Shown here: one piece after another, positions 6,701 through 56,898 of the stretch
Position numbering within the stretch: position 1 is the first letter of the stretch
Layout of the letters: every line of letters begins with the position of its first letter
From: Tetracentron sinense
Lineage: Eukaryota > Streptophyta > Magnoliopsida > Trochodendrales > Trochodendraceae
Assembly: GCA_015143295.1 (NCBI GenBank)
Contig: CM026564.1
Location: 10,838,416 to 10,902,415 of the forward strand
Length of the DNA stretch: 64,000 nt
Direction of reading: 5' to 3'
The notes under the pieces: generated by a model
Seen by the model: only the letters and a program-made list of their open reading frames with translations
The model's database searches: none
What the model was told of the DNA's origin: nothing
Position numbers and translations under genes: made by a program

Positions 6701-7552
6701 CTCTAATCATGTTCTTGAAAATACGATAAATCATGTCATGCATGCCGTGCTCATAGAAGTCGTGTGAATACTTACAATTGAATTTAAATATGACATGTTT
6801 GAGGATTTCACAATACATTGCACATCACCATTTAAACAAGTAACAAATTAAACAATTTAGGGAAAATGCAAAAACACACTATCATAACCCAAACAATTTC
6901 CCTAAACTTTAAGCATGCATTTTCTTAATTTATTATTCATTTTATTCACCTTGGCATTCCATCAAACATGGTATGTTCATTATTTGTTAACCCTACAACA
7001 TGCTTTTCTAGGTGGGTTATAATTCCATCATACATGTTTGTTCATTATGGATACAATGCCCTCCCCATTTCAATTATCACAACACAACCATTTGCATCCA
7101 ATCGCCCATTCCATCTCCATTCACAACATCCACACATCCCAACTCATAGCACAAGTATAGATGAAGGAAAACAAAGAAACATGGAGGAAAAGAGGAACTA
7201 TAACTAGGAGAGTAGCAAGAAGTACCGACCTTGACAAATGAGAGAAAGAATCCCCTTCCAAAACGTTCGTGAGTCGCTGCCCTAGCTTGGAGAAACTACT
7301 CCTTGCGAGCTTGAACCGGAATCTTGAAGCAATCCAAGCTTAAGGTGACCTAGGGTTCACAAACCCTTTGATTTCTTCTCAAAAATCAAACCCTAGGTTT
7401 AGAAATCTCCTTCTCTTCTCTCTTCCTCTCTAATATCTTCTAAGTGTGATAAATGAGCCTTAAAGGCTCGGGAAAACCTTAAGAGGAAGGAGTGAAACGC
7501 CCAAAAGACGAAAACACCCTTAATGAAAATTCTGCAAAAAAACACGAAGACC

Positions 7553-7700: not shown

Positions 7701-7958
7701 AGGTTTTGACACAGAGACCATTTTTCACCCATTTTCCACTACTTGGACTGATCCTAGTTCTCTTTTGACATTTCCTAAACATGACTAGGGTCTCCTTAAA
7801 GCTTGTATATGTGCTTAAATAATTCATTAAATTAATCATAGCATTCTTGACACAATTTTCTCATAGTTCCAAATTTTCATTTCATGAATTTGAGATTACA
7901 TAGGCTACATGCCTTGGCACTTATGCCAAGACATGTACGAAAGTTCCAGGGTTGTACA

Positions 7959-8673
7959 CCCTGTCCCAATTCTTGAGAGATATTTTGAGTCTCTTAAGCT
8001 TTAAGAAAAAAGCAATAATAGGGTCAGCAATAATATCAACAAACCAAGAATCAGAAACTAACCTTTTGAAGTTGGAGTGACTAATCCACATCTTTTGGAA
8101 TTTAAAGGAAGGAGGCTTTTGAGATCTATCATTTTCAAACTTGAGAATAAGAGGAGCATGATTCGAGTTGAGTCTGGATAAATGAGTAACCTGAGGTGTT
8201 GGAAGATTATTACTCCATTCAATATTATACAAAATACGATCCAGCCTGGTATAAATTCTATTAACACCCATCTGATTGTTGCACCATGTAAACTTATTTC
8301 CAGAAAAAACCCGCATCAATAAGACCCATGTCATTGATGAATTCATTAAATTCTTCCAGAGATCTAACATTGGGATCTCTTCCCCCCAATTTTTCTCTAG
8401 AGTTGGCAATAGCATTGAAATCACCAGCAAAAAGCAGAGGACCATTGAAGTTAGATAACAGCAGAGATAAATCAATCCACAGAATCAATCTACCATTACT
8501 ACAACATTTGGCATATTAAGCATCTTACTCAAGGCTACAATTTTATCAGAGGTTTGCATAGGTTCCATAATGGCAATCCTAGATATGTTATAAGAATTTA
8601 CCAAATACTTTAGTCTGGCTTTAGAAGCTATGTTACCAACCCCTCTAATATTCCAGGATAAAATACTAATCAT
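7959..8673 (-). pseudogene. LINE ORF2, endonuclease domain (partial, frameshifted)
   Basis: AP-endonuclease-like domain that nicks target DNA to prime LINE insertion. Starts MISILSWNIRGVGN at 8673. Further motifs are GDFNAI near 8420, FTWCNNQ and RLDRILYN near 8270-8220, and SNHAPLIL near 8160. The domain changes frame around 8480 and again near 8300, and the middle is shorter than usual. The downstream RT is absent because element A interrupts the reading frame at 7959. The start ATG overlaps the ORF1 stop (ATGATTAG, 8673-8666), a compact ORF1/ORF2 junction. Confidence 0.85.
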
Positions 8674-9123
8674 TGGAAACTATACTAGTATCTTCCAACA
8701 AAAAAGGAGCTTGAGCTCTAGATCTTGTTATTCGATCAAAAGGGAGAATCCCTGTAACGCCCCAAAATACCCCCTAGGAGTTAGGACACTTTGGGGACGT
8801 GACATGACCTGAAATCAACCTGCAAGAGTATACAAGGCATGCAAAATAGTGAACTAAAGATTTCTTTAATGACTTAACTATATTCCAAGTGCAATTGACT
8901 ACAATAATTGAACAGAATTTACATGTATGTGAACTCCTTAACTTGAGTCCCAACTCAAGTGAGACAAACATCCCCAAGCATAAGAACCTAAAATACATGT
9001 CTCTCTCTCACTCATCCCAACCATTGACCATATTCCAAGATTCCTAATATCTGGGTGACAGCCAGAGCGGTCTCCTGCTATACATGAGCCGCCTCTATCC
9101 GAAGAACTTGAAGTCCATATATC

Positions 9124-9144
9124 TTATAACGTACCTACTGACAT
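9124..9144 (-). pseudogene. LTR micro-ORF remnant in D1
   Basis: The conserved start is kept (MSVGT), but a TAA follows after six codons. Only a short phrase of the usual downstream coding sequence is recognisable. Confidence 0.5.
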
Positions 9145-9499
9145 AAAAGTACAGCTCGACATGGAATACTCAGCGAGTACAACTTACTAGCTAATGATAG
9201 TGATAACGATAAAATGTGAAACAATAATATATCATGTATGGTGCAATTCATTTTTACATATACATAATCAGAGTACGGAAGCTAATACGACTAACACTTG
9301 TACAATTATTAAACATCATACTTTAAATCATACATTCTATTCGTGTTTTAACCCATGCTTGTTTTCCATTACCTTGTGAGTTCTTTATTGGCTAGTACCC
9401 GAACTATGAAATGGATGAACATACTAGGTTCTTGTTTGGTTCTTGTCTCATGAGAATCATTCGTGTTTTCTTGTCGACTTGCATGTGAGTTTTCTTGCT

Positions 9500-9950
9500 T
9501 TCATGGGAATAGATGATAGTGCCCGTACCTAGTCTTAGTACATTATCACCCTTCCATATTCCTTTATTCTTGCTTGGAGACAGATACTAGTACCCGTACC
9601 TGGTCTTAGTATACTAGTATCCTCTCATACTTGTTGGAAACAGATGTTAATGCCCGTACCTGTTCTTCCCTTTCATGCTTGCTGGCAATAGATGTTAGTG
9701 GCCGTACCTGGTCTTAGTACACCAACACCCTTCCATGTTTCTTGATTCTTGCTTGTCATGTTTTCTTGTGAGCCAGGTATGACATATTCTAGGGATATGC
9801 CCTACCCTTGACATTCATGCTTGTTTAACTTGTGAGCTAGGTATGACATATCTTGTGATATGCCCTACCCTTGATATTCATGCTTGTTTAACTTGTGAGC
9901 CAGGTATGGCATATCCTAGGGATATGCCTTACCCTTGACATTCATTCGTT
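9500..9950 (-). repeat. Two hairpin minisatellites in D1
   Basis: 9510-9730: about four units around CCCGTACCTGGTCTTAGTA, one flanked by perfect arms GATACTAGTA and TACTAGTATC. 9770-9945: three units with CATATCC-N3-GGATATG or CATATC-N4-GATATG inside an outer GGTA...TACC pair. Confidence 0.75.
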
Positions 9951-10911
9951 TCGTGAATCACATTCTTGTTCTTGTTGTTTTCTTATATGCATATACTTGA
10001 AAACCCGGTTCATGCAAGCATGCGTGCTTGTGGGTGAGTTCCGTGGGCATATTGATGACATGGAAGGATTGAGAATAACACATGGCATCTGTAAAATTTT
10101 AGGCACATGATAGACATTGGATAATTCATAAAGCATATCATTATTTTTACAAAAATTTGGGGAATGTCCCATAGTTCATATTTCATGATTTTAGTCTCAC
10201 CTTTTACACAAGCATTACATCAACACCTTACATGCACTATATCTTTAACCCCTTATACATATTTCCCTAACTTTATATTCCTAATCCATTCATGCATTTT
10301 GACGAACATGTAGCTTCCAATCTTTTTATCTCAATTTATTTGTATTTCCTCATTTAAGCATTTCATCAAACACATGGGGTGTGTTCATTATGAGTAAAGT
10401 GCCCCTCCATCATTTTCCATCATAACACACATCACAACCAATGGCATCCAATCGCCTCAACCCATTCACATTCCACACATCCACATTCAATCCATTTATC
10501 TTGTTTATCTTAGGGAAAATGACATATTTCAACCAAAAAGGAAAAATGGGGGAGATTCAATACACATTCACTTAAGAAATCCTAGGTTATTACTAAAGTA
10601 GTTAGTAGAGTGTACTAGCCTTGAAAAGGAGGAAGAAACCCTTGAGAATGTCATAGGAAACATTGCTCAAGTTTGGAGGAGTAACTCCTCACGTGCTTGA
10701 GGCTTGGGCTTGAAGAAATCCAAGCTTCAATGGGTCCTCCAACAATTCTTGCACCAAACCCTAGTTCTTCCCTTCTTCTATCTCCCAAAATCCCCAAACA
10801 TATGTGCTTGAGGGTTTATGAAACCCTCCCCCATGATTTGGGGCTTTATATAGAAAATGGGGGGTCAAAAGACCCATTTACCCTTAATGAAATCTGCAAA
10901 AACATGAATGA

Positions 10912-11105
10912 CCAAGCGATCGGTGCTTATGACTGAGCGATCGGTACCCAACCGAGCGATCAATTGAAAACACTGTCTCTGGAATTTTTTCCCATAGAAA
11001 AAAGTGAACTAGTCGATAGATACTGATCGATTGGTTGTGGACCGATCAATCTCTATATTGGACTGAGCGATCGGTTTTGGACCGAGTGATCGCTAGAGAT
11101 CGGTG
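10912..11105 (-). promoter_or_regulatory. U3 palindrome cassette of D1
   Basis: Series of GAGCGATCGGT and CGATCGATTGGT-type near-palindromes, in the same LTR position as in A, B, E, G2, G3 and M. Confidence 0.55.
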
Positions 11106-13164
11106 TTCTGCAATTTTGGCACATTTTACTGTTTCGGCCATAACTTTTGACTCGTTCGTCGGATTTTGACGATTCAACTTGTGTTGGATTCTTCTTTCGA
11201 AAAGGAACATGTTTGGCATTCAGAATTTTTAAATTCTTCTTTATTTATTAATTAGACTATGTGAAAGACCAATTGGCTATGAGAACACTGCTGATTAGGC
11301 ACGAAAAGTTCCAGGGTGCTACAACCCCTTTCTTTTGTTTTTGATGTAAAATCAATTCTTTTTCTTCTTCCATTTCTAAAAGCTTTTTGATATTCTGGAT
11401 TTGAGCGAGAAAAGCTTTACCTTCAACTATAAAGTTTTCTATATTATCAAAAGCAACTTTTTGTACCTCATGATGAAATTCCGAAGTAGAAGATGAAAGC
11501 CAGTTTATATCTTTCGGAATCTTATTTGGAGGAGGAATAGAAGATTGAGCTCTCTTCTTCATAAAATTCCACTTAGGACAGCTAGGGACAATATTTCCAA
11601 TATCATAATCATCCACAGTCATATGAACACCTTCTAAAAGAATATCAGAATTTGAAACCGGGGTGTGCCCATTGCTATAATCATCCATAGACATAATAAC
11701 ACCTTCTAAAATTTTTGCAGCACTTGAAACCGAAATATGGCCACTGTTAGAAACTTTTTCAAAATTCTGCATTACAATAGCTTCTGAATTAATAGGTTTC
11801 TGTTCATCATCTTGTCCTCGAGACTTTTCTGAATACATCTCTATATCTTCTTCACAATTGCTATTATCATAAACCGAAATGTGCCCAATGCTATTATCTT
11901 CCATAGTCCTTAAACCACCTTCTAAATTTTTCCCAGCATTTGAGTCCGTAATATGCCCACTGTTAGAAACTTTTTCAGTATTCTGAGGTAAATTAATCAC
12001 TGTATTAATAAGCTAATGTTCATCATCTTCACCTTGTGAATTTTCTGAATTTTTCTCTACTTCTTCTTCACGTTTGCTGGATTCTTTGGTTAGATCCACA
12101 TCTGACTTATGATTACTTCCCTCGTTAGCTTTCTGATTCTTCTTCCTCACCCATCTTCTTTGACCTTTCTTACTTTGATCGTTATCCAACTCATGAATAA
12201 CTTCATCGTGGTTCTGTTTTAAAGCAACACAGCAGGCTGAATCTAGGTGACCTTGTTTGCAACAAAACGAACAATAGTTTATCTCCTTCTCATAAACAAT
12301 TTTTTGCCATTTATCAATGGGACCAATACCCAGCCATATCCGAGATGGCTTAGACTTCGAAACGTCCAGATCTACACATATCCTTGCTTTATTTGGCCTC
12401 GTTAACATCTTAGTTGGACCATCCAAGCAAAGAAAAACACCCACTGCTGATCCAATAGATCTCAGAATTTGTTCTTGATAAAGGTGAATAGGTAAGTTTG
12501 GAAGAGAGATCCACATGGGAACTATTGAAGGTTCCATACCTGAATTAAAGGTTGGAGTCCATTTAATAAAGCTAAGAAGGAGCCCATTGATGTAGCAGTA
12601 TTCTTTAAGATTAATGGTGAGATAGTCTTCTTCTGCCGAGAACCGGATTAAGTGGAATTTTTTTTTGAAAAACTCTCTAATGGTTGGGAAAGAAGGCCTC
12701 CCATAAGAACATTTATCAACTAAAGAGAGTTTTAATGGAGTTGCTAATCATGCAAATTCCTCTGGGGTAAGGAACAACGTAGGTTCACCCTGGTAAGCCG
12801 CAATGGATTTAGAAATATTCACGCATTCAGGAATCAAAGATCTTGTAGCATTAGATACCTTAGCATAAGACTTAGATCTAGCAACCTTAGCATACGATGG
12901 AGTTGAATCAGGAGGTCTAGAAGATGAACCCCCAACCATGGGGCCGGAGGCCATGGGAGATACCATGAAACCCTAGGAGAGAACTTGCAAACCAGCCACT
13001 AACAAGCACCTAATTTAAAAAATCTACTAACTTGCACGAAAATGGATTCCACGGTCTCGTATTTCGAAGTTCATCTGAGTTCTAAGTTCAACTCAAAGAT
13101 CACCCTAGCCCTAAAACCTACTTTTGCTTATAGGACAACTGAGCCCAAAGGAACTAATCCCTAG

Positions 13165-13444: not shown

Positions 13445-13573
13445 TCAGCAAAAGTGAAAATCGGGCTCGTCCTGATAATGATCCATGGTAGGCTCCGGCT
13501 CGTAGTACTCTTCCTCTATCCAAGGCTCCGAACCACAGATGTCAAAGGGAACACGTTCACCTAGCGAAGTCAA
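13445..13573 (-). pseudogene. LTR micro-ORF in C, start codon lost
   Basis: The frame holds VPFDICGSEPWIEEEYYEPE and stops at 13445, but the conserved ATG is TTG here with an extra codon nearby. The coding core is therefore preserved while the start has decayed. The C-terminal part differs from the A/E/G1/M type and is longer. Confidence 0.5.
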
Positions 13574-24339: not shown

Positions 24340-24755
24340 ATAATTCTTATGAACCAGAGGTTAGTACCCGCACAACCCTGGGCTACCAACCTCCTTGACA
24401 ATACAATACTTCTGAGTCTTTTCTTATGAGCCAGGGGTTAGCACCCGCACAATCCTGGGCTACCAACCCCCTTGACAATTCCAATACTTTTCTTATAAGC
24501 CAGAGGCTAGCACCCTTAACCGGGGCTACCAACCTCCTTGATAGTTCCATATCCTTTTCTTATGAGCCAGAGGCTAGCACCCTTAACCGGGGCTACCAAC
24601 CTCCTTGATAGTACAATACTTTCGAGTCCTTTCTTATGAGCCAGGGGTTAGCACTCATACAATCCTGAGCTACCAACCACCTTGACAATACCATTTCTTA
24701 TGAGCAAGAGGCTAGCACCCTTAACCGGGGCTACCAACCTCCTTGACATTTCCTC
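24340..24755 (-). repeat. Hairpin minisatellite in element B LTR
   Basis: About six units of 60-75 bp: GAGCCAGAGGTTAGCACCC, short spacer, GGGCTACCAACCTCCTTGAC. The arms GAGGTT and AACCTC pair. One unit has GGGGTT with AACCCC, a compensated change. Units with GAGGCT opposite AACCTC still pair as G-U in minus-strand RNA, the LTR's sense direction. Confidence 0.85.
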
Positions 24756-25537
24756 CATCTACATATGTGCTCGTGCATAGCAATTGTGAAATCATAATGT
24801 CATACGAATTGAGGAGTAGCATGTAACATTGCATTTCTTATCACAATCATATGAGAAAGTAAACAAGCATATATAAATATGGGTCACAATTTGTCATTTT
24901 TGGGAGAACTACATGAAACATGCTTTTCGAACATTCATTCAATTCTAAGTATTCTCACTCATGCATTTTACCAAGCAAGTGGTATTCTACATTTTCTTTA
25001 GTCCTTTAAACTCATAATTTCTTTCTCAAGCATTTCATCAAGCATCACATGTGCATTTATTATGTGTATGATACCCTTCCACCATTTCCATCATTCAACA
25101 CATCACAACATAGCATCCCATCGCCTCAATCCTTTCCTCCATCCATACATTTCACCATTCATTCATTTTATCTTGTTTATGGTTTAGGGATTTAGCATAT
25201 TTCCATACAAAGGATGAATGGGGAAAATACAACACACTATATTCACAAGAAGTCTACGTTATTACCAAGGTAACTAGGAAGAGTTTACTAACCTTGAAAG
25301 AAGAAGAGAAAAACCCTTAAAATGCTGAGGGAGACGCTGCCCTAGTTTAGAGAACGAGCTCCACACGTGCTTGAGGTTGGGTTTGATGAATCCAAGCCTT
25401 TAGGGATGATCTTGGGTGTTTAAACCCTTGATTCTCCCTCCCAAATGAAAAGGGTCTCTTGAAACCCTAGGTTCTTCTCACTCTCCCTCAAATACCTCTA
25501 AGTGTAGTGAAATGGGGACCCAAAACTCGAGCAAGGC

Positions 25538-29315: not shown

Positions 29316-29599
29316 TAATAAAGCGCCTGTGTGATTAATTAATTCACGTTAATAGATTTCACGCAAGAATACATAAGTATAGGCAGTATGTTATACACAT
29401 AACAATCACATCACGTAATAGCAACCAATCACAACTCGAAATTATGTGCCCTGTGATGGGTTACGTGAAATAGAAATTATGTGCCATGTGATTACGTGTT
29501 TCCATTGTCTACCATGTTCACCACAAGTGTTTATGTGCATGTGTATTGCATGATCGAGATTTACCATGTGTACGTGTCAAGTGTAAACCAACTAAGTGT

Positions 29600-29915
29600 A
29601 TGTGAAGCTAGTGGCCTCTACTCCTCGTAGGGTAGGCATTAGTAAAGTGTATGTGTATGTGTGTGTACCATGAGTGTTAGTGGGCTCTCACTCCTTGTAG
29701 GGTGAGCATTAACCATGGAATATGTATGTGAAGCTAATGGCCTCTACTCCTTATAGGGTAGGTATTAGTGCTAATGGACTCTATTCCTTGCAGGGTAGGC
29801 ATTAGTAAATACATGTGAAGTTAGTGGCCTCTACTCCTTGTAGGGTAGGCATTAGTCAAGTGCAAGTGTACCCTAATGGCCTCTACTCCTTATAGGGTAG
29901 GCATTAGGCAAGTGC
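29600..29915 (+). repeat. Hairpin minisatellite in K
   Basis: About six units of GTGGCCTCTACTCC-N4-TAGGGTAGGCATTAG. Outer arms CTAATG and CATTAG, inner CTAC and GTAG. The unit at 29672-29712 has GTTAGTG with CATTAAC, and TCAC with GTGA instead of CTAC with GTAG: two paired positions changed on both sides. Confidence 0.85.
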
Positions 29916-30143: not shown

Positions 30144-30233
30144 ATGTTGGCAGGTCCTATTGATCCATGTGTTCCTGAGCCTTGGATAGAGGAGGAGTAC
30201 TACGAGCCGGAGCTTGCCATGGATCATCACTAG
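30144..30233 (+). CDS. LTR micro-ORF, 29 aa (K copy)
   Basis: Starts MLAGPIDPCVPEPW, continues IEEEYYEPELAMDHH, then stop. It is the shortest open copy. The tail resembles LTR C (YYEPEPTMDH), the start resembles the others. The upstream dyad has lost its ATG here (ATTCAATACTC), leaving the ORF start as the first ATG of the block. Confidence 0.42.
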   Translation: MLAGPIDPCVPEPWIEEEYYEPELAMDHH

Positions 30234-32353: not shown

Positions 32354-32461
32354 ATGTCGGCAGGTGATAGTGGAGCGGCTGCTCCTTTTGATATCTGTGT
32401 TCCTGGTCCTTGGGTAGAAGAAGAGTACATCGAGGAACCTCCGGTAGAGGGCTACTATTAG
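32354..32461 (+). CDS. LTR micro-ORF, 35 aa (element E 5' LTR copy)
   Basis: MSAGDSGAAAPFDICV, then PGPWVEEEYIEEPPVEGYY and stop. It lies downstream of the promoter and about 650 bp before gag, so it would be in the 5' leader of the element RNA. An ATG in the dyad upstream opens a 10-codon frame that overlaps the start in another phase. Product unknown. Confidence 0.45.
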   Translation: MSAGDSGAAAPFDICVPGPWVEEEYIEEPPVEGYY

Positions 32462-32773: not shown

Positions 32774-33111
32774 TCAGGCTTTAGGTCTTTAAGGTCACTT
32801 AGAATCTAGTACCACAGCTTGGCAAGAGCATATGTCGGGAAACAAGTTAGGAAGGGAGTAAGTCAGAAGCGAGTCTTGTTCCAAGTGTAAGACTAAACTT
32901 TAGTCCTAGTCAAAATGGTTTCTTCAACCAAGTACGTGTCTTAGGAACGCTAGAACACCAAGGTATATATTATAAATACACTGATGATTGTGATGCGATG
33001 TATATTAGTATTATACAACTAATACCAATTGAATTATTGTGAAATGGAACTGTTATAAATTATGGTTTCAAGTTAGACTCATGTGGTGTTATTGTTCTCA
33101 GGACGTTAGTC

Positions 33112-37945: not shown

Positions 37946-39988
37946 AGTAGAACCCCGGAATTTTTCATACTAATTGAATAGTACTTTCGTAACCAATGAG
38001 CCTTTAACGTAGTATAATTAATAAATAAGGGAGAAATTAAAAATTCTGAAATGTTAGAAATGTTCCTTTTCAAAGTACGAACCCAACGCAAGTTGAATCG
38101 TCAAAATCCGACGAACGAGTCAAAAGATATGGCCAAAACAGTAAAATGGGTCAAAAATCTACAGAGCACCGATCGCTAGGGATCGATCGGTTCACAACCG
38201 CTCGGTCGGTCCAAATTAGCGATTGATCGGTCCAAAACCGATCGATCGGTAGCTATCGACTGGTTAACTTTTTTGTATGGGGACATTTTTCAGAGAGCAT
38301 GTTTTTTACCGAGAGCTCGGTCAAGAACACCAATCGCTTGGTATTTACCACCGATCGATCGGTATATCATGTTTTGCAAAATTTCATTAAGGGCTTTTTC
38401 GGCATTTGGGTGTTATACCCTTTGCCTACAAGGCTTGCCCGAGTCTTTAGGGCTCATTCAACACACTTAAAGTGTTTTGAGAGATAGAGAGAGGAGAAAG
38501 GGGTTTCCAAACCTAAGGTTTGCATTTGAGAAGGAATCAAGGGTTTGAAGACCCTAGATCACCTCAAGCTTGGATTTCTTTAAGTTCACGGTTCAAGCAC
38601 TCGTGAGGAGCATGTTCCTCAAGCTAGGGCAGTAACTCCAAGCACGTTTTGGGAAGGTTTCCCCCATTTGTCAAGGTCGGTACCTTTTGCTACCCTCCTA
38701 GTTCATACCTCTTCTTCCTTTCTTCTTTATTATTTTCCTAATGTATGAACCTAATAGGAGATGTGATGGAAGTGGTGTGAGAATGGATGTTGGGCGATGA
38801 ATGCCGTGTGAATGATGTGATGAATGAAATTGGAAGGTGTTTGATGAAATGCCAAGGTGAATAAAATGAATTATAAATTAAGAAATGCAGGCCTAAACAC
38901 TTATGAAATTGCTAGGGAATATGATAGTGTGATTCCTCGTTTTCCTTAAATTGCATAATTATTACTCGTTCAATTATTGATATGCTATGCGTTGTTGAAA
39001 TCCCCAAATGTCATATTTAATTCCAAATGCAAGCATGTACACGATCTCACGAGCACGGCATGCATGACATGGTTTACCGGCATTTTAAAAAATAAGGCTT
39101 AGAGGTGGGACATGTCTTATGACATGTTTTGCCTTGCTTTTGACAAGAACAAGACAAGCATTCATAAAGAAGGGTCTCCCTTCCCTCTCAAGTGCATATC
39201 ATAAAGAAGGGTCTCCCTTCCCTATCAAGTGCATATCATGAAAGAAGGGTCTCCCTTCCCTCTCAAGTGCATCTCACAAGTACATGAACATGTTAAAGTC
39301 CAAGCACGCAAGCATGACACGTATGACATGACACGCATGACAAGATCAAGCAAGATAGACTTGACAAGTTTTCCACGAAAAGGGTAATTTAAGTCAAGTC
39401 AAGTGCACAAAGATTTTTAAGAGATTTATCGGCTTTTATGTGATGCAAGCATGAATATAAACTGCTTTGCTTTCCTGTTATTTTATAAATTACTTCCTGC
39501 TTTATATATATTATTATTGCTATGCTATGACTGTTGGTTAGTATTTGGTACCCGCTGAGTATTCCATGCTCAGCCGTACTTCTTATGTCGGCAGGTGATA
39601 GTAGAGCGGTTGCTCCTTTTGATATCTGTGTTCCTGGTCCTTGGGTAGAAGAAGAGTACGTCGAGGAACCTCCGGTAGAGGGCTACTATTAGGTGGTAGA
39701 TTCTGAGTGAGTGAGCTATGGGTGTGAGCTTGAGAGAGTTATACTTATGTACTTTGGCGGGTCTGTTCCCACCTTCTTTTGTTCCCTTTTTGTATAAAAC
39801 TTGGATCATGTATATATACACATAGAGGTTTTGTTTAGATTTCCGCTGTGCTTCGTAGTTATGTTTCCGCTATTCTTGTCCTCTATTGTGTATGCTCCAG
39901 GTCTGTTGCAGGTTATTTTGGTCAAGCAAGTCATGATGAGTCGTCCAAGATTCACTTTAACTCCTAGGGTGGGTTTTGGGTCGCGACA
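37946..39988 (+). mobile_element. Element E 3' LTR (2043 bp)
   Basis: Starts AGTAGAACCCCGG (TG mutated to AG) and ends GGGTCGCGACA. It retains the R region lost from the 5' LTR, with the CAAGGTCGGTA junction at about 38678-38688. It lacks about 110 bp near 38840 that the 5' LTR has. Hairpin units at 39165-39275. Confidence 0.95.
39585..39692 (+). CDS. LTR micro-ORF, 35 aa (element E 3' LTR copy)
   Basis: Same length as the 5' LTR copy. It differs at Gly7 to Arg, Ala9 to Val and Ile26 to Val, and stays open. Core CVPGPWVEEEYVEEPP is intact. Confidence 0.45.
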   Translation: MSAGDSRAVAPFDICVPGPWVEEEYVEEPPVEGYY

Positions 39989-43846: not shown

Positions 43847-43966
43847 CTAATGGTAACCCTCTACTGGAGGTTCCTCCAAAGGCTCCTCGACGTACTCCTC
43901 TTCCACCCATGGACCAGGAGCACAAACATCAAATGGAGCAGCAGCTCCCTTAGAACCTGCCGACAT
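43847..43966 (-). CDS. LTR micro-ORF, 39 aa (G1 copy)
   Basis: MSAGSKGAAAPFDVCA, then PGPWVEEEYVEEPLEE and ending GYH-stop. Same length as in A and M, with different codons (CCA TTT GAT GTT TGT; GAA GAG GAG TAC). The dyad lies just upstream. Confidence 0.45.
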   Translation of the reverse strand: MSAGSKGAAAPFDVCAPGPWVEEEYVEEPLEEPPVEGYH

Positions 43967-45360: not shown

Positions 45361-45515
45361 TCAATAGTCATCCCCGTGGGGCCAATGGTCTAAGTCTCTC
45401 GCCTCCGCCTGAGGCTCGACTACTAGATCCTCATAAGGTTCCTCCTCGCCATAGTCCTCCTCTATCCAAGGACCCGGATCACAAATGTCGAGAGGGACTC
45501 GGTACCTACCGACAT
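45361..45515 (-). pseudogene. LTR micro-ORF in G2, 1-bp frameshift
   Basis: Start MSVGTES is followed by a frame change; the shifted frame reads VPLDICDPGPWIEEDYGEEE to the usual TGA at 45361. The span is 155 bp against 156 in B, so a single base was lost near codon 6. Confidence 0.55.
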
Positions 45516-46209
45516 GAAAGTACGGCTGAGCATGGAATACTCAGCGAGTACAAGCCCCTAACTAACAATGGTAATAACGAACAACATCATATACAAGAAA
45601 TGGGAGGAGTATAGTTCATAATCATTTCTAGTAACCTCATATATAAACATTTTATCAAGTCATAATTATTATGAAACTAAAACATATCTATGCATCATAC
45701 AATTCCTCTTTGAGTTGTCCTTTTAATATTTCTTATGAGCCAGAGGTTAGCACCCGCATATCCCTGGGCTACCAACCTCCTTGACAGTACAATACCTTTC
45801 TTATGAGCCAGGGGTTAGCACCCGCACATCCCTGGGCTACCAACCCCCTTGACAGTACAATACACTTCTTATGAGCCAGAGGCTAGCACCCGCACATCCC
45901 TGGGCTACCAGCCTCCTTGACAGTACGTGTCACGCCCCAAAATACCCCCTAGGAGTTAAGGGATACTTTAGAGGTGACTGCGTGTACCTGTCAAACCATC
46001 CTGTAATGCAAGAGGCTAAACATGATATAATACAATGATAATCAGAGCGTGGAAACTAAACATAAGTGCGGAAGCATAAGCCAACTTTTTCTTTTCTTCT
46101 ATTACTCCATATAGTATTCCAAGTTAACATATACTAAATACAATCAAAGTAAAGGTGGACATGCCCACCTATCAAAATACAAAAAAAGGAACTTTCTAAC
46201 ACTGTCCTC

Positions 46210-46350
46210 TCAACAGTAGTCGAGGTATGGCCACACATCCAAGTCCCCATCCTCTTGAGACTGCCATGGGATAGGTGGCTCCCTCTCCTCTACATACTCC
46301 TCCTCGACCCAAGGCTCGGGATCGAGGACATCCACAGTACCTGCCGACAT
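46210..46350 (-). CDS. LTR micro-ORF, 46 aa (G3 copy)
   Basis: MSAGTVDVLDPEPWVEEEYV, then a tail with EEREPPIPWQSQEDGD and ending YLDYC-stop. The usual Cys before the core is replaced (VLD instead of DIC) and a Cys ends the peptide. An in-frame ATG in the dyad (46368-46366) would add six codons. Confidence 0.42.
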   Translation of the reverse strand: MSAGTVDVLDPEPWVEEEYVEEREPPIPWQSQEDGDLDVWPYLDYC

Positions 46351-46624
46351 AAAAGTACGGCTGAGCATGGAATACTCAGCGAGTACAAACTACTAGCTAA
46401 CCATAACAATAGCGAAAGCATAACAACAGTGAGCAATACAAGATATTAATTTAAAGCAATAGTGAAAGCATAAGATACATAGCCATATCTTGACATGCGG
46501 GTATGAATGCAAAAACCTCGGTAAAACTCATGTCTCGGAAACCTTTTTCGTGTCTCGGTCAAATCATGTATGTGTATCGTGTCTTGCCTTGTATTTCATG
46601 TCTTGACTTGTTCTTGACTTGTAT

Positions 46625-46960
46625 ACTTGTGAGCCAGAGGCTAGCACCCTTCCTTGGGCTACCAACCTCCTTGTCATGTTCTTGTTCCATTTCTCTTGTG
46701 AGCCAGAGGCTAGCACCCTTCCTTGGGCTACCAACCTCCTTGTCATGTTCTTGTTTCATTTCACTTGTGAGCCAGAGGCTAGCACCCTTCCTTGGGCTAC
46801 CAACCTCCTTGTCATGTACTTGATTCATTTCACTTGTGAGCCAGAGGCTAGCACCCTTCCTTGGGCTACCAACCTCCTTGTCATGTACTTGATTCATTTC
46901 ACTTGTGAGCCAGAGGCTAGCACCCTTCCTTGGGCTACCAACCCCCTTGTCATGTTCTTG
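46625..46960 (-). repeat. Hairpin minisatellite in G3 (five units)
   Basis: Five units of about 64 bp: GAGCCAGAGGCTAGCACCC-N5-TTGGGCTACCAACCTCC, separated by CTTGTCATGT-type spacers. The last unit ends AACCCCC. In minus-strand RNA the odd pairs are G-U. Very homogeneous, so recently expanded. Confidence 0.88.
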
Positions 46961-47937
46961 TTTTCTTGTTTGCTTTATTATGCACAATTACTCTTGGAAA
47001 ACCCAATTCATGCATGCATGCGTGCTTGTGTGCTTGTCAATAGTGGTAATCATGATGACATACTTGAATGGGCGGATCACATGAATATGGCATTTCAATC
47101 CTTAACCTAGTGGTATGAAAATTTAGGCAACATATAGCACATTTGAGCAATTTATCATTCCTAAGAAAATTTACACAATTTCTATTTCCATTTTCTTCAT
47201 TAAGTCCATTTATCCCTTGTTTAGTCATTTTATCAAACACACGGTGGGCCACATTTCTTAGTCCTTCCATTTCTCTTATTTAGTGCGTATTTTTCATCAA
47301 GAAATCAAGGTACATTCATTATTTGTAAAGTGCCCATCTTCCATTTTCCATTTCACACATCACACAACATCCATACGGCATCCAATCGCCTCAATCGACA
47401 TCCCATCCACACATCCATATCTTTTTCTTATCTTGTTTATATTTAGTGGAGATGATACATTTTATAAGTAAGAAAACATACTATCAAGAGTCACATTTCA
47501 CAATAGAAAATCTAGACTATTGCTAAGGGAAGTTAGTAGGGTGTACTAACCTTGAATCGAAGCTTGATCTTGGTGTAGACCTTGATTTAAACTCCAACTT
47601 GGAAGAAGAAAGCCCTTACTCAAACTATACTTGCTTGGGTAGGAAACCCTCTTGAGAATACCGTAGAGAGTGCTGCCCTAACTTGAGAAGGGAACCCCAC
47701 ACGAGCTTGAGTTGAAATCTTGAAGAAAACGTGCTTGGGGACGATCTAGGGTCTTCACCCCTTTGATTTCTTCTCCAATGGAAAACCCTAGTTGCAAATC
47801 CCCTTCTCCTCTCTCTCTATCTCTCAAAATCCCTTAAGTGTTGTGAATGAAGCCCTAAAGGCTCGGGCAAGCCTTAAGGAGAAAGGGTTTAACCCCCAAA
47901 AGACGATAAAGCCCTTACTGAAATTTCTGCAAAAACG

Positions 47938-48130: not shown

Positions 48131-49524
48131 CTATATGTCTGGACTGTTTTGACCATATCTTTTGACTCGCTCGTCGGATTTCGACGATTCAACTTGCGTT
48201 GGGTTCGTCTTTCGAAAACGCACATTTCTGACATTTCGGAATTTCCGATTTCTCCCTTATTTATTAATTAGACTACAAAAACGGCCAATTAGCTACGAAG
48301 GTGCTATTCATTAAGGATGAAAAAGTCCGGGGTGCTACAGTACGATACCTTACTTATGAGCCAGAGGTTAGCACCCGCATAATCCTGGGCTACTAACCTC
48401 CTTAACAATACCATTTCCTTTCTTATGAGCCAGAGGTTAGCACCCTTAACCGGGGCTACCAACCTCCTTGACAATACCATTTCCTTTCTTATGAGCCAGA
48501 GGTTAGCACCCTTAACCGGGGCTACCAACCTCCTTGACAGTGCAACATTTCCGAGTCCTTTCTTATGAGCCAGGGGTTAGCACCCGCATGATCCCTGGGC
48601 TACCAACCCCCTTGACAGTACAATACACTTCTTATGAGCCAGAGGTTAGCACCCGCATAATCCTGGGCTACCAACCTCCTTGACAATATCCTCCATCTAC
48701 ATATGTGCTCGTGCATAGCAATCGTGAAATTATGATGACATATAGCATTTTAAAATTTCCCAACTCACATGAGAATTTAAGAAGCGAAATAAACACATGC
48801 ATACAACTTGCCAAATGGGGAACATTTATGTGACTCATGCTTTCAAATCTTAGTTTATTCATGCATTCTATCAAATATGGGGTATTCAACCTTTTTACCT
48901 TTAGTTATTTCATATTTTCTCATTCGAACATTTTATCAAACACTTGGGGTGTGTTCATTATGCGTAATATGCCCTTCCACCATTTTTCCCATCATTCAAC
49001 ACATCACAACATGGCATCCAATCGCCTCCACTCCTCATCCATTCATACATTCCCCCATTTGTTTGTATTATCTTGTTTATGTTTTAGGGATTTAGCATAT
49101 ACCAACACAAGGGAGCAATGGGGAAGATCCAACACATATTTTCTTAGAAAAATCCTAGGTTATTACCAAAGTAACTAGGAAGAGTGTACTAACCTTGAAA
49201 AGGGAAAGAAAATCCTTGAGGATGATGTAGAAACGCTGCCCTAGCTTGGAAGAGGTACTCCACACGAGCTTGAGGTTGGATTTGGAGAATCCAAGCCTTG
49301 AACTTGAAGCAAATCCAAGTTTGAGGACGACCTAGGATGGTCCACCCCTTTGATTTCTTCCTCAATGGAAACCCTAGGTCAAAACCCTCTTCTTCTCACT
49401 CTCTAGCTCTCAAAATGTCTAAGGGTTGTGAATGAGGGCTCAAAGGGTCGAGCAAACCCTTATGGGCAAGGGTTTAACACCCAAAAGACGAAAACGCCCT
49501 TACTGAAATTTCTGCAAAAACGCG

Positions 49525-52174: not shown

Positions 52175-54697
52175 AACTTTTTCAGAAATACACTTGTGCC
52201 CTTCGGAGCAGCGCTACACGACCTCCAAGGGATCCCTTATGAATAGAGGGTCTCCTAGAAAGTCTGAGGATGGCCTGAGGCTACGGGGCTGGTGTCTCTA
52301 CCCATGAGGGGTCCCCCATACCTATGAAAGAGGTAGGGGAAGCCCCTATTCTAGGTTTATGCCACAAAACAGAAGTATAAGTCCCCTAGAAGGACCAGGG
52401 GCTCACAATGATGAGTGTAAGGAAGAGCAAAAGGGTAGGGGATGACCCTACCCTGTCGGATTGCCTGGGATGGCTGCTACAGTGGTGGTAGTTCACAGTG
52501 GTGGCCTATGGTGGTGATGCACGACTGGGGGAGAACCTTGGGTGGTTTTGGGAGCTTCTAGTGTTTCTTGGGTGAGGCTAGTGTTAGACATATATGCCCA
52601 CGAAAGCCATTACGGAGTTGTATTAGTCTACTTAATCAATAAAAGCATATTTTACATTCACACATTGTTTTCTGCATTGGGTAACATACTAAAAGTATCT
52701 CATTGGATGAGACTACTTTGTCCCTTAGGTAACATTGTAGGAAAACCATCCAATTAGTTATGAACTAATTGCTAAGGAGATATGGTTTTCCGGTTCCTTG
52801 TAGACCTAGAATTGTTCTATGTTATTCAGGATACTTCTGGACAATGTATTCCTACTAATTTACACATTGTTAGTTCCATATGATGGAGTGATGAATCTCA
52901 TTCATTGAGAGAAGGGTCTCTTGACTAAGATGTGGATATAAGTAAGAAGTACATAGATTGTAACTGGATCGCTCAGTGGATACCCTTAGAAATATACTGT
53001 CTTTATATTTAGGGTAGTCCATTTGACAGATTGTCCTTAACCTGAGAGGTCGACATCTTTTCTATTATTTGCCTATATAGCTTTGATGTAGCCAATCGTC
53101 AATGTCCAACACACCGTACTAAAGACGGGCTCGTTGGGTTATGTATGCTATATTAGAAGAAGTGTGTGTATGCTTAATAAGGATTCCACTAATCTTATGG
53201 AGTAATAAATATTGAGTTGGTACTTGTCAAAACCAGACTTGAAAAACCCAGCGCTGGTATTTATCGATGAAATGGTTTTATCGAGAAGTTTATTTTCTGT
53301 ATAAAAGAAATGTAATTATTATTATTATTTCTTTAAAGAATTTCTAAAATAGTTTTGAAAGTCCAAGTTTGACAAAAATTATCAAAGATAATGGGTTCTC
53401 AATATAAGCCAGGGATTAAAGACAGTATTAGATATTGTCCCGTAAGCTTATAACAATATTGGAAGTGGAGGGACACATCTGTAAACAAATCTTGTGATAG
53501 AAATACCTGCAAGTAATTCTCTATTTTCTGGAGGTTAATCACATTGTGTTAATGGGCATTATTGTGATTGGTGGAAGTCCAGGGATATAGATGAAATTTT
53601 ATCATCCTAATGGAGTGATAGGAAAGGTGTTTCCTAGTAACAATGCTTTAACCAAAAGGTTAAGCACTTAGTCCCACAACCGGAAATAGGAGATCCCTTT
53701 AGATCCCACACACTAGGACCTTCTTAAAGTGTTTAATTTAATTATTAATTAAATTAATTAATTTATCTAAGTTATCACTATATGGTATAGTGAAGCTCTA
53801 AAAGGTGGAACCACATTAGATGTGATAAATCAAATAGGTAGGACCCATTGGGAATTTTTGATAAAGATAAAAAAGTGACCTAAGGGGTTTGGAACCCTAA
53901 GAGGCATGTGGAGTGGGGCCCACCTAGGGTGGGACGCCCACTTCAAGGAGGGACCTTTGCTTTAATTAGTTTCTAATTACTAATCTCCTTATTGGATAAG
54001 GTTAGTTAGTTACTAATTAAAGATTCTCTATATAATTAAGATTCCTTATTGGATAAGGAAATGGTTTGTTAGTTACTAATAGATAAGGTTAGTTTCTATT
54101 AATGATTAATCCTAATTAATTAGGAGAAATCAAGAAAGGAAACAATTGAGGAATCCTTATTAGATAAGGATAAGGAGTCTTAGGTTGCAAGCAACCCAAG
54201 CAAAGGCTATATAAAGAGGTGGACGTCCAAGGCTTGGACACAATCTAATTTCTAGATTTTCCTCTCCCCTCTCCTCAATCTCACGCCTCTCTCTTTCTCC
54301 CTCAAGGTGTACGGTCATCACTCCCTCCCTTATTCTTGTTTCTTGTTTTTCTATTTTGAATATCAAGAAGAAGAAGAACAAGCTTACTTGATCATCAAGA
54401 AAGGATCTTTTATTTAAGATCCAAGAGCTGGAATTTTTGGAAAGGCCATTAGAGAGAGCTTTAAAGAAAAAGAAGAAGGTTTGTGTAGAGCCCCGGACCT
54501 TTTCACATTTAATGCATGACACTTTCGTTGTCATTTTGCCTTTAAAGAAGAATAATTAATGAATAAGGAATAAATTGGAAATTTCGAAATGTCAGAAATG
54601 TTCGTTTTCTAAGTACGAACCCAACACAAGTTGAATCATCAAAATCGGACGAACGAGTTAAAAGATATGGCCAAAACAGTCTGGACCTGCAGGCAAC

Positions 54698-54947
54698 CGA
54701 TCGCTCGGTCCATAGAGCGATCGATCGGTCCAAAACCGATCGATCGGTAGCTATCGACTGGTCAAGATTTTTGTATGGGGAAATTTTCCAGAGAGTTGAT
54801 TTTTAGTCGAGAGCTCGGTCAACACACCGATCGCTCGGTAGGCAACCGATCGATCGGTCATAAACACCGATCGCTCGGTCTTCGCGTTTTGCAGAATTTT
54901 CACTAAGGGCATTTTCGGCATTCGGGTGTTATACCCTTTCTTATATA
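54698..54947 (+). promoter_or_regulatory. M promoter: palindrome cassette and TATA box
   Basis: 54698-54880 has seven CGATCG-centred sites, including the perfect palindrome ACCGATCGATCGGT (54735-54748) and ACCGATCGCTCGGT variants. TATATA follows at 54942-54947. This places the cassette directly upstream of the core promoter. Confidence 0.65.
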
Positions 54948-55780
54948 GGATCGCCCGAGCCTTTAGGGCTCATTCTCAACACTTAGAAGATTTGGGAGAT
55001 TAGAAGAGAGGAGAAAGGGTTCCCAAACCTAGGTTTTCATTTGGGGAGAAATCAAAGGGGTTAAGACCCTAGATCAACCCCAAGCCCGTTTTCTTCAAGA
55101 TCAAGGCTCAAGCATTCGAGGAGCTCGTGATCCAAGCTAGGACAGCAGCTACACGGTCGTTTTTGGAAGGGGTTTCTTCCTCATTTCTTCAAGGTCGGTA
55201 TTTCTTGCTACCCTCCTAGTTATAGTTCTTCTTTTCCTTTATTTTCTTTGTGTTCCTTTATACATCCATGTATTATGAGATGGGTTGTGAATGGTGAATG
55301 GAGATGAATGTGGGCGATTGGATGCCGTGTGTATTGATGTGATGGATGAACGGGGAGGGCATTGTACCCATAATGAACATACATATGTGATGTGAGTAAA
55401 ACCCACCTAGAAAAGCATGTTGTAGGGTTAATAAATAATGAATGCACCATGTTTGATGAAATGTCAAGGTGAATAAAATGAATAATAAATTAAGAAAATG
55501 CATGTTTAAGGTTTATGGAAATTGCTAGGGTCTTGATAGTGTGATTGTTCGCTTTCCCTAAATGTTATGAATATTAAATTGCTCAAATCATTGATATTAT
55601 GTGTTATGAATTACTCAAATGCCATATTTAATTCCAAATGCAAGTATGCACACGACCTCACGAGCACGCATACATGACTTGATTTACCGAGGTTTTCAAG
55701 AATGGGATTTAGAGGTGGGGCATATCCTACGATATGTTTTACCTCGCTTTTGGCAAGGACAAGTCAATCATGCATTTTCA

Positions 55781-55932
55781 TAAGAAGGGTCTCCCTTCCC
55801 TCGCAAGTGCATCTCACAAGGACATCTCACAAGTGAACCTCACAAGTGGTTTACTTTTCCGAGTAAGCATGACATGACATAGCATGACAAGCATGAGCAT
55901 TCTAGGAAGAAGGGTCTCCCTTCCCTCACAAG
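55781..55932 (+). repeat. Hairpin repeat in M
   Basis: Two units with AAGAAGGGTCTCCCTTCCCTC (arms GAAGGG and CCCTTC), about 130 bp apart, with CTCACAAGT phrases between. A reduced form of the arrays in E and G1. Confidence 0.75.
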
Positions 55933-56255
55933 TAGATTACTTTTCAGAACAAGCAAGCATGATACACGCATGGCATGACATGACACGCATGATACAAGCA
56001 TGACACAGTAGACAAGGTTTCAAGCATAAAAAGGGTAATTTCAGTCAAGTCAAGTGCACAAGATTTCAAGGGTTTTACCGGCTTTTATGATTGCAAACAT
56101 GATGACTTATATTGCTTTACTTTATTGTCATGATATGAATCATTCCTGCTTTATATGCGTGAATTGTTTCCTGCTTTATGCATGCTATCTGTATGCTATG
56201 ACTGTTGGTTAGTGCTTGGTACCCGCTGAGTATTCCATGCTCAGCCGTACTTCTT

Positions 56256-56375
56256 ATGTCGGCAGGTGATGGCGGAGCAGCTGCTCCTTTTGATGTCTGT
56301 GCTCCGAGCCCTTGGGTGGAGGAGGAGTACGTCGAGGAACCTTTGGAGGAACCTCCAGTAGAGGGTTACCATTAG
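56256..56375 (+). CDS. LTR micro-ORF, 39 aa (M copy)
   Basis: MSAGDGGAAAPFDVCA, PSPWVEEEYVEEPLEEPPVE, GYH-stop. The ATG lies 13 bases after the dyad GCTGAG-N9-CTCAGC (56225-56245). An ATG inside the dyad opens a 10-codon overlapping frame. About a third of residues are acidic; no signal peptide or membrane segment. Alternatively, GGCAG-GT right after the ATG could be a splice acceptor paired with CAAGGTCGGTA near 55190, which would make this a second exon. Confidence 0.48.
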   Translation: MSAGDGGAAAPFDVCAPSPWVEEEYVEEPLEEPPVEGYH

Positions 56376-56898
56376 GTGGTTGTAGATTCTGAGTGAATAG
56401 CTGTGGGTGAGATGAGAGATATACATTCATGTATTTTGGCGGGTCTGTTCGCATTTTCTTTTGGTTACTTTTTGTATAAACTTGGATTTGCGTATGCATA
56501 TACATAGAGGTTTGGTAGACTTCCGCTGTGCTTTATGGTTATGTTTCCGCTATAATGTCCTCTATTGTATATGCTCTGTGGGTTTTGCAGGTTGGTTGCC
56601 AAGCAAGTCATGATTAGTCATCCGAAGTTCACTCTAACTCCTAGGGTGGGTTTTGGGTCGCGACAGTTTGTGTGGATTGCAAAGGAGACTTGACACTTGT
56701 GAACTTTTAATGGTCTATCGTTCTGTCGTGGATTTGACTTAACAATTTCAAAGTCGCAAAGGTGATTGTGATTTCAACCTTCATTGAATAAAATCAATTA
56801 AAATCTTAGTCAGATTTTGGGATTCGATGTATGCCCCCTAAGAACTATTTTTCTAAAATTAAAAAGCGGCATACTTTCAGAAAGAGGCATACTTTCAG

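Follow-up and report, generated by a model that had tools for sequence, protein, structure and literature searches.

A short acidic reading frame inside the LTRs of several gypsy subfamilies of Tetracentron sinense, and purifying selection on its peptide

Here we show, by comparing repeat copies with one another, that a short acidic reading frame situated inside the LTRs of Ty3/gypsy elements of Tetracentron sinense has been subject to purifying selection at the amino-acid level in several element subfamilies. The block in which the frame begins, with a stem-loop, a YAG|GT site and the ATG, seems from its sequence to have an RNA- or DNA-level role of its own, and peptide and DNA both seem to be under selection. 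The frame had been described in an earlier note, made from the letters of a 64,000-nucleotide stretch of contig CM026564.1 (assembly GCA_015143295.1), which is the stretch that we call the window.

Acidic frames in the window and in the genome

The eight frames of the earlier note lie and translate as it had given them, from 29 codons (copy K) to 51 (copy B). All eight open with M-[SL]-[AVT]-G, and D-x-C-x-[PS]-x-P-W-[VI]-E-E-[ED]-Y is present in seven of them, copy G3 retaining PEPWVEEEY only, again as described. With an nhmmer profile made from the eight frames and their flanks, 11 strong places were found in the window, namely the eight and copies G2, C and D1; matches beyond these had E values of 0.11 or more (E >= 0.11). 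The copies are as follows.

56256..56375, plus strand: acidic ORF, copy M, 39 aa
6085..6204, minus strand: acidic ORF, copy A, 39 aa
23989..24144, minus strand: acidic ORF, copy B, 51 aa, with a DLDHWP tail
30144..30233, plus strand: acidic ORF, copy K, 29 aa; the frame resumes past a TAG
32354..32461, plus strand: acidic ORF, 5' LTR of element E (E1), from translation
39585..39692, plus strand: acidic ORF, 3' LTR of element E (E2), from translation; compared with the 5' LTR copy
43847..43966, minus strand: acidic ORF, copy G1, from translation
46210..46350, minus strand: acidic ORF, copy G3, lacking the Cys
13445..13561, minus strand: copy C, open from YAG|GT to TGA, lacking the ATG
45361..45501, minus strand: copy G2, with a one-base loss, frame otherwise retained
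8996..9221, minus strand: copy D1, ATG and AG|GT retained, stem-loop arm altered, acidic core absent

The frame spans about 25-51 codons and lies some 300-400 bp from the 3' end of the LTR. A core, D-x-C-x-P-x-P-W-[VI]-E-E-E-Y, is followed by an acidic tail, with D-x-D-x-W-P near the end in several families, and overall there are 7-15 D/E against 0-3 K/R. Tail lengths vary: counted from the Trp codon, the stop is 48 to 105 nt away (126 in L046:453). In most of 18 frames compared, though not in every one, a Tyr is found among the final residues. Copy K is a shortened form: past its TAG the same frame reads DDGALDGRPYLDYC and then a stop, resembling EDGDLDVWPYLDYC and stop in G3. None of 15 frame members matches any Pfam family, and no PDB chain matches the frame profile.

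Copies G2, C and D1 had been taken in the earlier note for decayed genes. G2 has the one-base loss, with its frame otherwise retained. The missing ATG of copy C is probably a family trait and not one-off decay, since C shares its ATG-less start with the minus-strand copy L046:453, whose frame is open, and reading all ATG loss as decay is doubtful. D1 has the early stop, as described, and has also lost the acidic core; the core-less D1 type recurs in L027, L028, L041 and L047.

By domain order (gag, RT-RNase H, integrase with chromodomain; order from tblastn) the elements are Ty3/gypsy chromoviruses, presumably of the Tekay clade, a label that we give from the style of the sequence. Pfam recognised Retrotrans_gag, zf-CCHC, RVT_1 and RT_RNaseH, and the chromodomain at a borderline score (E 2.3e-5, 24.7 bits against a cut-off of 25.1). 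LTRs with intact frames adjoin sequence matching gag and pol over most of their length. Similarity to both in tblastn adjoins the LTRs of A, E, L035, L036, L041 and L042, and to pol only that of B; after the D1-type copy in L047 there is only a gag fragment. Elsewhere in the window, three ORFs of 174-247 aa, LINE-like by eye, lie between LTR pieces on the minus strand (7921-12537).

Spread beyond the window was sampled in 20 fixed-position stretches of 10 kb (200 kb in all) on four contigs of the 1.16 Gb assembly. They gave 17 matches, 15 of which reach the start of the frame. The motif frame, or a recognisable form of it, is open in 10 of the 15 (L035:641, L035:2505, L036:1526, L036:3067, L037:4287, L041:3930, L042:2285, L040:5192, L046:453 and L046:5495) and is not open in the other five (L037:1275, L041:3259, L047:2572, L047:8924 and L049:5810). 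The L040 copy is strongly diverged (EPWVKETYIEEGG) but retains acidic residues and the W. Naive scaling of 15 per 200 kb, from four contigs, would put the genome total in the tens of thousands. Out of 2142 candidate places for the ORF of copy M itself, 40 were scored; 14 of these (M included) are identical to it and 26 have 99% identity.

In a profile search of 5.8 billion proteins, the window frames alone gave one match, P0002 (E 3.6e-5). Widening the profile with P0002 and the frames of C and G2 added P0003-P0005 (E 8.9e-9, 1.7e-7 and 1.3e-4), and a third search returned the same four proteins and nothing further, three of them being already in its query. All four sit on ENA contigs of 0.6-1.3 kb and have the DxWP tail, as in B and G3; the translation of P0004 reads through the stem-loop block, with WYPLSIRILSHVCFIYMAGEQ against WYPLSIPCSAVLLMSAG in M-like copies. 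The ORF profile had no match in the genome contig collection, the stem-loop patterns none in the genome or viral contig collections, and pol none in the viral contig collection. One IMG/VR match (L009) proved to be an unrelated frame in another contig and was excluded from all counts.

Purifying selection on the peptide

The broadest comparison used 18 copies chosen as open and aligned as DNA with no protein guidance, in pairs that share ancestry and are not independent. In the three frames of the ORF, 144, 143 and 143 of the 153 pairs had enough letters and changes. Summed over pairs, the ORF frame had 1625 amino-acid changes against 2094 expected (0.78), with P<=0.05 in 82 of 144 pairs, while the other two frames of the same bases stood at 1.06 and 1.10 of the random expectation, with P<=0.05 in 1/143 and 0/143. 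The upstream and downstream flanks, in three frames each, were at 0.99-1.02 of expectation, and P<=0.05 was reached in 1 to 16 of 153 pairs, the 16 being those of downstream frame 0. P exceeded 0.05 in 62 of the 144 ORF-frame pairs, including most pairs with L040 and L046:453, and for that reason constraint on these two most diverged frames is established only between C and L046:453, in the protein-guided test described below. That pair, neither member of which has the ATG, differs by 35 base changes and 15 amino-acid changes, where 20.8 were expected (P 0.0013).

Smaller sets of pairs gave a stronger signal. In a protein-guided test of 14 pairs, hand-chosen out of the 153 and with substitutions placed at random for the expectation, amino-acid changes fell below expectation in 11 (P<=0.017); the three that lacked significance were A-M, K-C and r46-K. 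Six pairs picked afterwards from the significant ones were then aligned as DNA and had 38 changes in the ORF frame against 75.7 expected, each with P<=0.016, and all 12 P values of the other two ORF frames were 0.33 or higher (>= 0.33). Their flanks yielded 36 P values, of which five fell under 0.05 (minimum 0.014), four of them on the downstream side. The deficit is thus weaker in the unguided all-pairs test (0.78) than in the six chosen pairs (0.50), and is confined to the ORF frame in both.

Ratios of substitution agree with these counts. Pooled pN/pS was 0.45 over 45 pairs of 10 window copies; dN/dS was 0.09-0.26 within subfamilies and rose to as much as 0.86 for distant pairs (K-M), dS being saturated in several pairs. 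Examples are A-E1 (dS 0.90, dN 0.08) and B-G2 (dS 0.52, dN 0.07). In an alignment of five LTRs, all six pairwise indel runs in the ORF were multiples of three, but all go back to one 12-base event; the corresponding counts were 33/225 in the upstream flank and 13/58 in the downstream one. The two LTRs of element E differ in the ORF by three nonsynonymous and no synonymous changes, a pattern that fits constraint ending after insertion.

A ratio near 1, equal conservation in all three frames and indels out of register had been named in the earlier note as what would speak against its claim. Among the copies tested, the pooled pN/pS lay at less than half of 1, with only distant pairs such as K-M coming near it; the deficit was restricted to one frame; and the ORF held no indel out of register, in an alignment with that single event. 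Purifying selection in one frame is what is looked for in protein-coding sequence, and it is found here, in pairs that are not independent. The claim of selection on the peptide is accordingly upheld. Its second half, that selection acts on the peptide rather than on the DNA, finds no support in that form; selection seems to act on both, as YAG|GT is kept at synonymous positions and the start block outlasts the core in copies of the D1 type.

The start block and the anatomy of the LTR

In addition to the frames, the argument draws on the following features of the LTR and of the leader of element E, the exon and intron limits being predictions made from sequence.

54484..56665, plus strand: LTR, copy M, from sequence comparison of LTR copies
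54941..54949, plus strand: TATA-like box TTATATAGG, copy M, about 0.46 kb into the LTR
54969..55193, plus strand: exon-1-like leader, copy M, without ATG; predicted start
55194..56265, plus strand: putative LTR intron, copy M, from AAG|GTCGGTA to CAG|GT, ATG-rich
56219..56250, plus strand: stem-loop, copy M, -14.2 kcal/mol, z -6.2, weak covariation
56263..56267, plus strand: acceptor-like CAG|GT, copy M, retained at positions synonymous for the peptide
56430..56460, plus strand: TGTATTTTGGCGGG..TTCGC, U-rich stretch resembling a hairpin, past the ORF; perhaps a poly(A) region
7230..7451, minus strand: exon-1-like leader, copy A, ending in AAG|GTCGGTA
25293..25511, minus strand: exon-1-like leader, copy B, ending in AAG|GTTAGTA, with a TTTATAAG box upstream
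38459..38675, plus strand: exon-1-like leader, E 3' LTR, with one ATG, ending in AAG|GTCGGTA
32858..32863, plus strand: leader GTAAGT of element E, some 96 nt past the PBS start
33092..33101, plus strand: acceptor-like TTGTTCTCAG just before the gag start of E

The stem-loop, GTACYCGCTGAGTATTCCATGCTCAGCCGTAC, lies directly upstream of the ORF. Its z-score in other copies is -2.4 (K), -3.7 (L040), -1.7 (L046) and -3.8 (L049), and diverged copies hold the inner stem with different letters (GAGTAC..GTACTC, GAGTAA..TTACTC, GAGTAT..ATACTC). In the stem alignment 85.5% of cells are paired, as against 22-38% in slid versions; strong covariation of the stem is not supported, 54 of 500 shuffles reaching its score and 220 of 500 matching its pairs changed on both sides. 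A coding frame shared between subfamilies and running upstream through the stem-loop was considered and rejected, the spacer differing by one base between subfamilies.

YAG|GT is present in 25 of 26 copies (11/11 in the window, 14/15 in the genome sample), collected with a profile that itself contains the site, and the ATG in 21 of the 26. L049 was scored as lacking the ATG from its own sequence, though the profile alignment shows one; the alignment gap of K was scored as CAGGT from its own sequence; and L046:5455 counts as a miss, though TTTTAGGT follows a few bases further on. The partial matches L042:9999 and L041:1196 end short of the site and were dropped from this count, and 28 places picked for ORF similarity were excluded both from it and from the selection counts. 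Two positions that are synonymous for the peptide, the third base of the Gly codon and the final one of codon 3, are nearly fixed all the same. Copies C and L046:453 have a common ATG-less start, TTGACTTCGSTAG|GT, and L040 also lacks the ATG. Over five LTRs, identity is 0.92 just before the ATG and 0.86-0.90 in the ORF; because the DNA around the ATG is about as conserved as the ORF, the M-x-x-G opening is no independent evidence of a peptide start.

Five copies of the D1 type (D1, L027, L028, L041 and L047) have lost the acidic core and retain the ATG and AG|GT. Three of them (L028, L041, L047) have the stem-loop unchanged, and two (L027, D1) have it altered. The early stop of D1 is absent from L027, L041 and L047; L028 has a stop at the PW position. 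Since the conserved sites outlast the peptide in these copies, the start block seems to serve a role of its own, the simplest candidate being an intron 3' end. As a separate observation, PWIE is retained at L027:675, L041:3303 and L047:2529, the start block is also seen at L028:257 and at 9221-8996 of the window, and the tail of this type is different (AQGEQ..IRM), so that it may carry a frame of its own.

Further upstream, copy M has an initiator-like CTCATT (54969) downstream of its TATA-like box; next come a GA-rich leader and, at 55193/55194, AAG|GTCGGTA. The same order is found in B (TTTATAAG; AAG|GTTAGTA), L040 (TATAAATA; AAG|GTCGATA) and L046 (TATAAATAG; AAG|GTTGGTA). TATA-like boxes are present in M, E1, B, L040 and L046 and altered in A and E2. 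A donor-site pattern that required the AAG|GTYRRTA motif and tolerated altered TATA boxes listed 16 places; ten have the stem-loop downstream, about 1 kb from the donor-like site, and represent nine distinct LTRs (L008 being copy M), and six have none. In 8 of the 9 the leader has no ATG (E2 has one), and the 900 bases that follow hold 29-51. Depletion of ATG in the leader beyond dinucleotide content is not supported: shuffles preserving dinucleotides expect only 0.6-1.3 ATG per leader, and the absence is hence a matter of composition. Exon 1 as a coding exon was discarded, having stops in phase; in L040 one stands just before the junction, in the phase of the ORF.

A U-rich stretch with TGTATTTTG comes after the ORF, together with a second sequence that resembles a hairpin, and closer to the end of the LTR there is an NCAG|G site. 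The latter, a second acceptor-like site of the form NCAG|G[AT]TGG, sits about 75 bp before the LTR end (window 56580-56600, for instance) in 7 of 14 copies compared (M, A, B, G3, G2, C and D1-type), and more loosely in E1, K and r40. Two other observations concern the rest of the LTR. In self-matches, short repeats such as CTCTACTCCTTGTAGGGTAGGCATTAG occur in the putative intron region (29597-29907, 24344-24753, 45729-46963, 48345-48688), and CCGATCG..CGGT palindromes are repeated in the 5' part, upstream of the TATA-like box (54681-54860 and other LTRs). The Rfam matches in the LTR, IRES_APC on the minus strand and HOXA11-AS1_6, both fell far below the gathering score.

In the internal region, 13 PBS-like places were listed. 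Eight of them have leaders of one sequence type, all with GTAAGT, a donor like that of retroviral leaders, and TTCTCAG stands before gag in four of the eight (E, L024, L036, L042), being altered in A and not seen in L002, L005 and L022. From GTAAGT to TTCTCAG, a candidate gag leader intron past the PBS may be present at window 32832-33101 (E) and in L024, L036 and L042. An ATG 26 nt before the leader donor would, by hand, join gag in frame and give a longer Gag start; L036 is one base short. The idea of a GTAAGT donor located after pol and before the 3' LTR was rejected, the sequence being found at one of four places (E), with GCAAGT in A and L035 and GCATGT in L036.

Expression of the frame and its place among known systems

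We think the chances slightly favour an LTR-resident, spliced mini-gene that encodes a small acidic accessory protein. Transcription would start at the TATA-like box, and a short, nearly ATG-free leader exon would be spliced across about 1 kb of ATG-rich LTR sequence to the ORF region. The ORF would then be the first well-placed frame of a short LTR transcript terminating after it, within the LTR, and the unspliced RNA would be the genome. More weakly, the product may act in trans, as a small acidic accessory protein in the active phase of the element, an idea based on inserted copies that seem not to conserve the peptide and on D1-type copies that keep the start block without it. It might be a chromatin or silencing partner or help to export intron-bearing RNA; we would guess from its composition that the acidic residues, Trp and Tyr suit a partner that is basic, for instance a histone, the nucleocapsid, or a factor of export or silencing. 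In the ORF, the ATG sits a few bases upstream of YAG|GT, and use of that site as acceptor would remove it and leave the ORF without AUG, as exon 1 offers none in 8 of 9. A different AG for the coding RNA, near-cognate initiation or an upstream coding exon could each supply the start. A bolder version, which we hold only tentatively and as clearly short of even odds, is that each LTR, solo LTRs included, may be a self-contained intron-bearing gene for a trans-acting small acidic protein, with promoter, leader exon, intron with the stem-loop before its acceptor, coding exon and poly(A) signals. In that case the LTR would be a gene besides a promoter and a terminator, and the tens of thousands of copies to which the sample points could form a reservoir of it.

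The frame appears downstream of the predicted transcription start and upstream of gag, and so frequent an ATG would suit a conserved-peptide uORF in the gag-pol 5' leader, whose nascent peptide or stop would tune gag reinitiation in cis. In uORFs that act through their peptide, conservation usually includes the C-terminal residues next to the stop, whereas here it is the core that is conserved and the distance from Trp to stop that varies; about 1 kb of ATG-rich sequence precedes the frame, and copies lacking the ATG can retain it open. We therefore regard a uORF as unlikely. Selection on an RNA or DNA element alone (splice acceptor, stem-loop or protein-binding site), with the frame as a by-product, would account for the nearly invariant stem-loop and YAG|GT and for the survival of ATG and AG|GT after peptide loss in the five D1-type copies. 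Yet the deficit of amino-acid changes is confined to the ORF frame and absent from the other two, and pN/pS is below 1; for the body of the ORF this explanation is largely refuted and, standing for the start block, is as a whole highly improbable.

Two other readings, which we rate as about equally improbable and a little below the uORF, also invoke splicing. The retroviral nef and MMTV sag genes overlap the LTR, in U3 of the 3' LTR, and are expressed from known spliced messages; like them, the frame lies inside an LTR and has a proposed accessory role. A gene of this kind would be read in the 3' LTR copy from a spliced subgenomic RNA joining the leader donor GTAAGT to the YAG|GT acceptor, and those sites occur in eight leaders and in 25/26 copies. 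However, the leader exon, followed by hand from its ATG, does not end in the phase of the ORF, whose own ATG lies upstream of the acceptor, and the position of the frame resembles R/U5 and not U3, the predicted promoter with its TATA-like box lying upstream of the frame in the same LTR. Alternatively, the frame could belong to a longer coding sequence, as one exon that splicing joins to another coding exon further upstream, its own ATG being dispensable for that reason. The motif keeps the same phase relative to YAG|GT with or without the ATG in the 18 copies chosen as open, and the mutual constraint on C and L046:453, both ATG-less, would follow. Against this, no in-phase upstream coding exon was found: exon 1 has stops there and lacks an ATG in 8/9, the phase of the gag leader exon, worked out by hand, does not fit, and the pol-end GTAAGT occurs at 1/4 places.

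The frame and the spliced mini-gene that we favour have partial counterparts in known systems. PMC7264820, on aORFs of plant LTR retrotransposons, and PMC11728184, on aORFs of Tekay (the Tekay 13-2 aORF has 402 aa), place extra genes in the internal region. Like the present frame, these are conserved extra coding sequences of plant gypsy elements, additional to gag-pol and possibly with a nuclear or accessory role. In those descriptions they are located either upstream of gag or after pol and before the 3' LTR, whereas the frame here has 25-51 codons inside the LTR and so falls outside a definition of aORFs as between the LTRs and outside gag-pol. According to PMC8892269, EVD makes a spliced short RNA, shGAG, through splicing and early termination. 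It is likewise a plant LTR element with a short coding RNA made by splicing; EVD, though, is Ty1/copia and its short RNA encodes Gag, while the product proposed here is a non-Gag LTR peptide. In PMC12786077, CERV of Cer1 comes from a spliced mRNA of the LTR element and is needed for export of unspliced RNA, which offers a model, by role only, for one possible function of the short, acidic peptide; the same text describes plant LTR elements as generally without introns, with exceptions including Ogre and EVADE.

Among the matches listed in the open-licence PMC literature, we recognised no paper that describes an ORF conserved within the LTR of a plant element. The excerpt of PMC6317226 contains none of the terms 'within LTR', 'aORF', 'additional ORF' and 'in the LTR', that of PMC3601003 reports that an LTR model for plant Metaviridae could not be built, owing to length variation, and that of PMC9070638 reports 47 unannotated grape peptides in regions of LTR elements. 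Additional ORFs of the internal region are known from these sources; an additional ORF inside the LTR appears new against them.

Plant LTRs are usually treated as non-coding control DNA, and the surveys for extra genes that we consulted look between them. If the LTR holds a selected peptide frame, pipelines confined to the region between LTRs would miss it, in elements that are abundant, and the question would arise which process of host or element needs a small acidic peptide in the active phase. Should the LTR intron prove genuine, the elements would in addition need an export route for unspliced genomic RNA.
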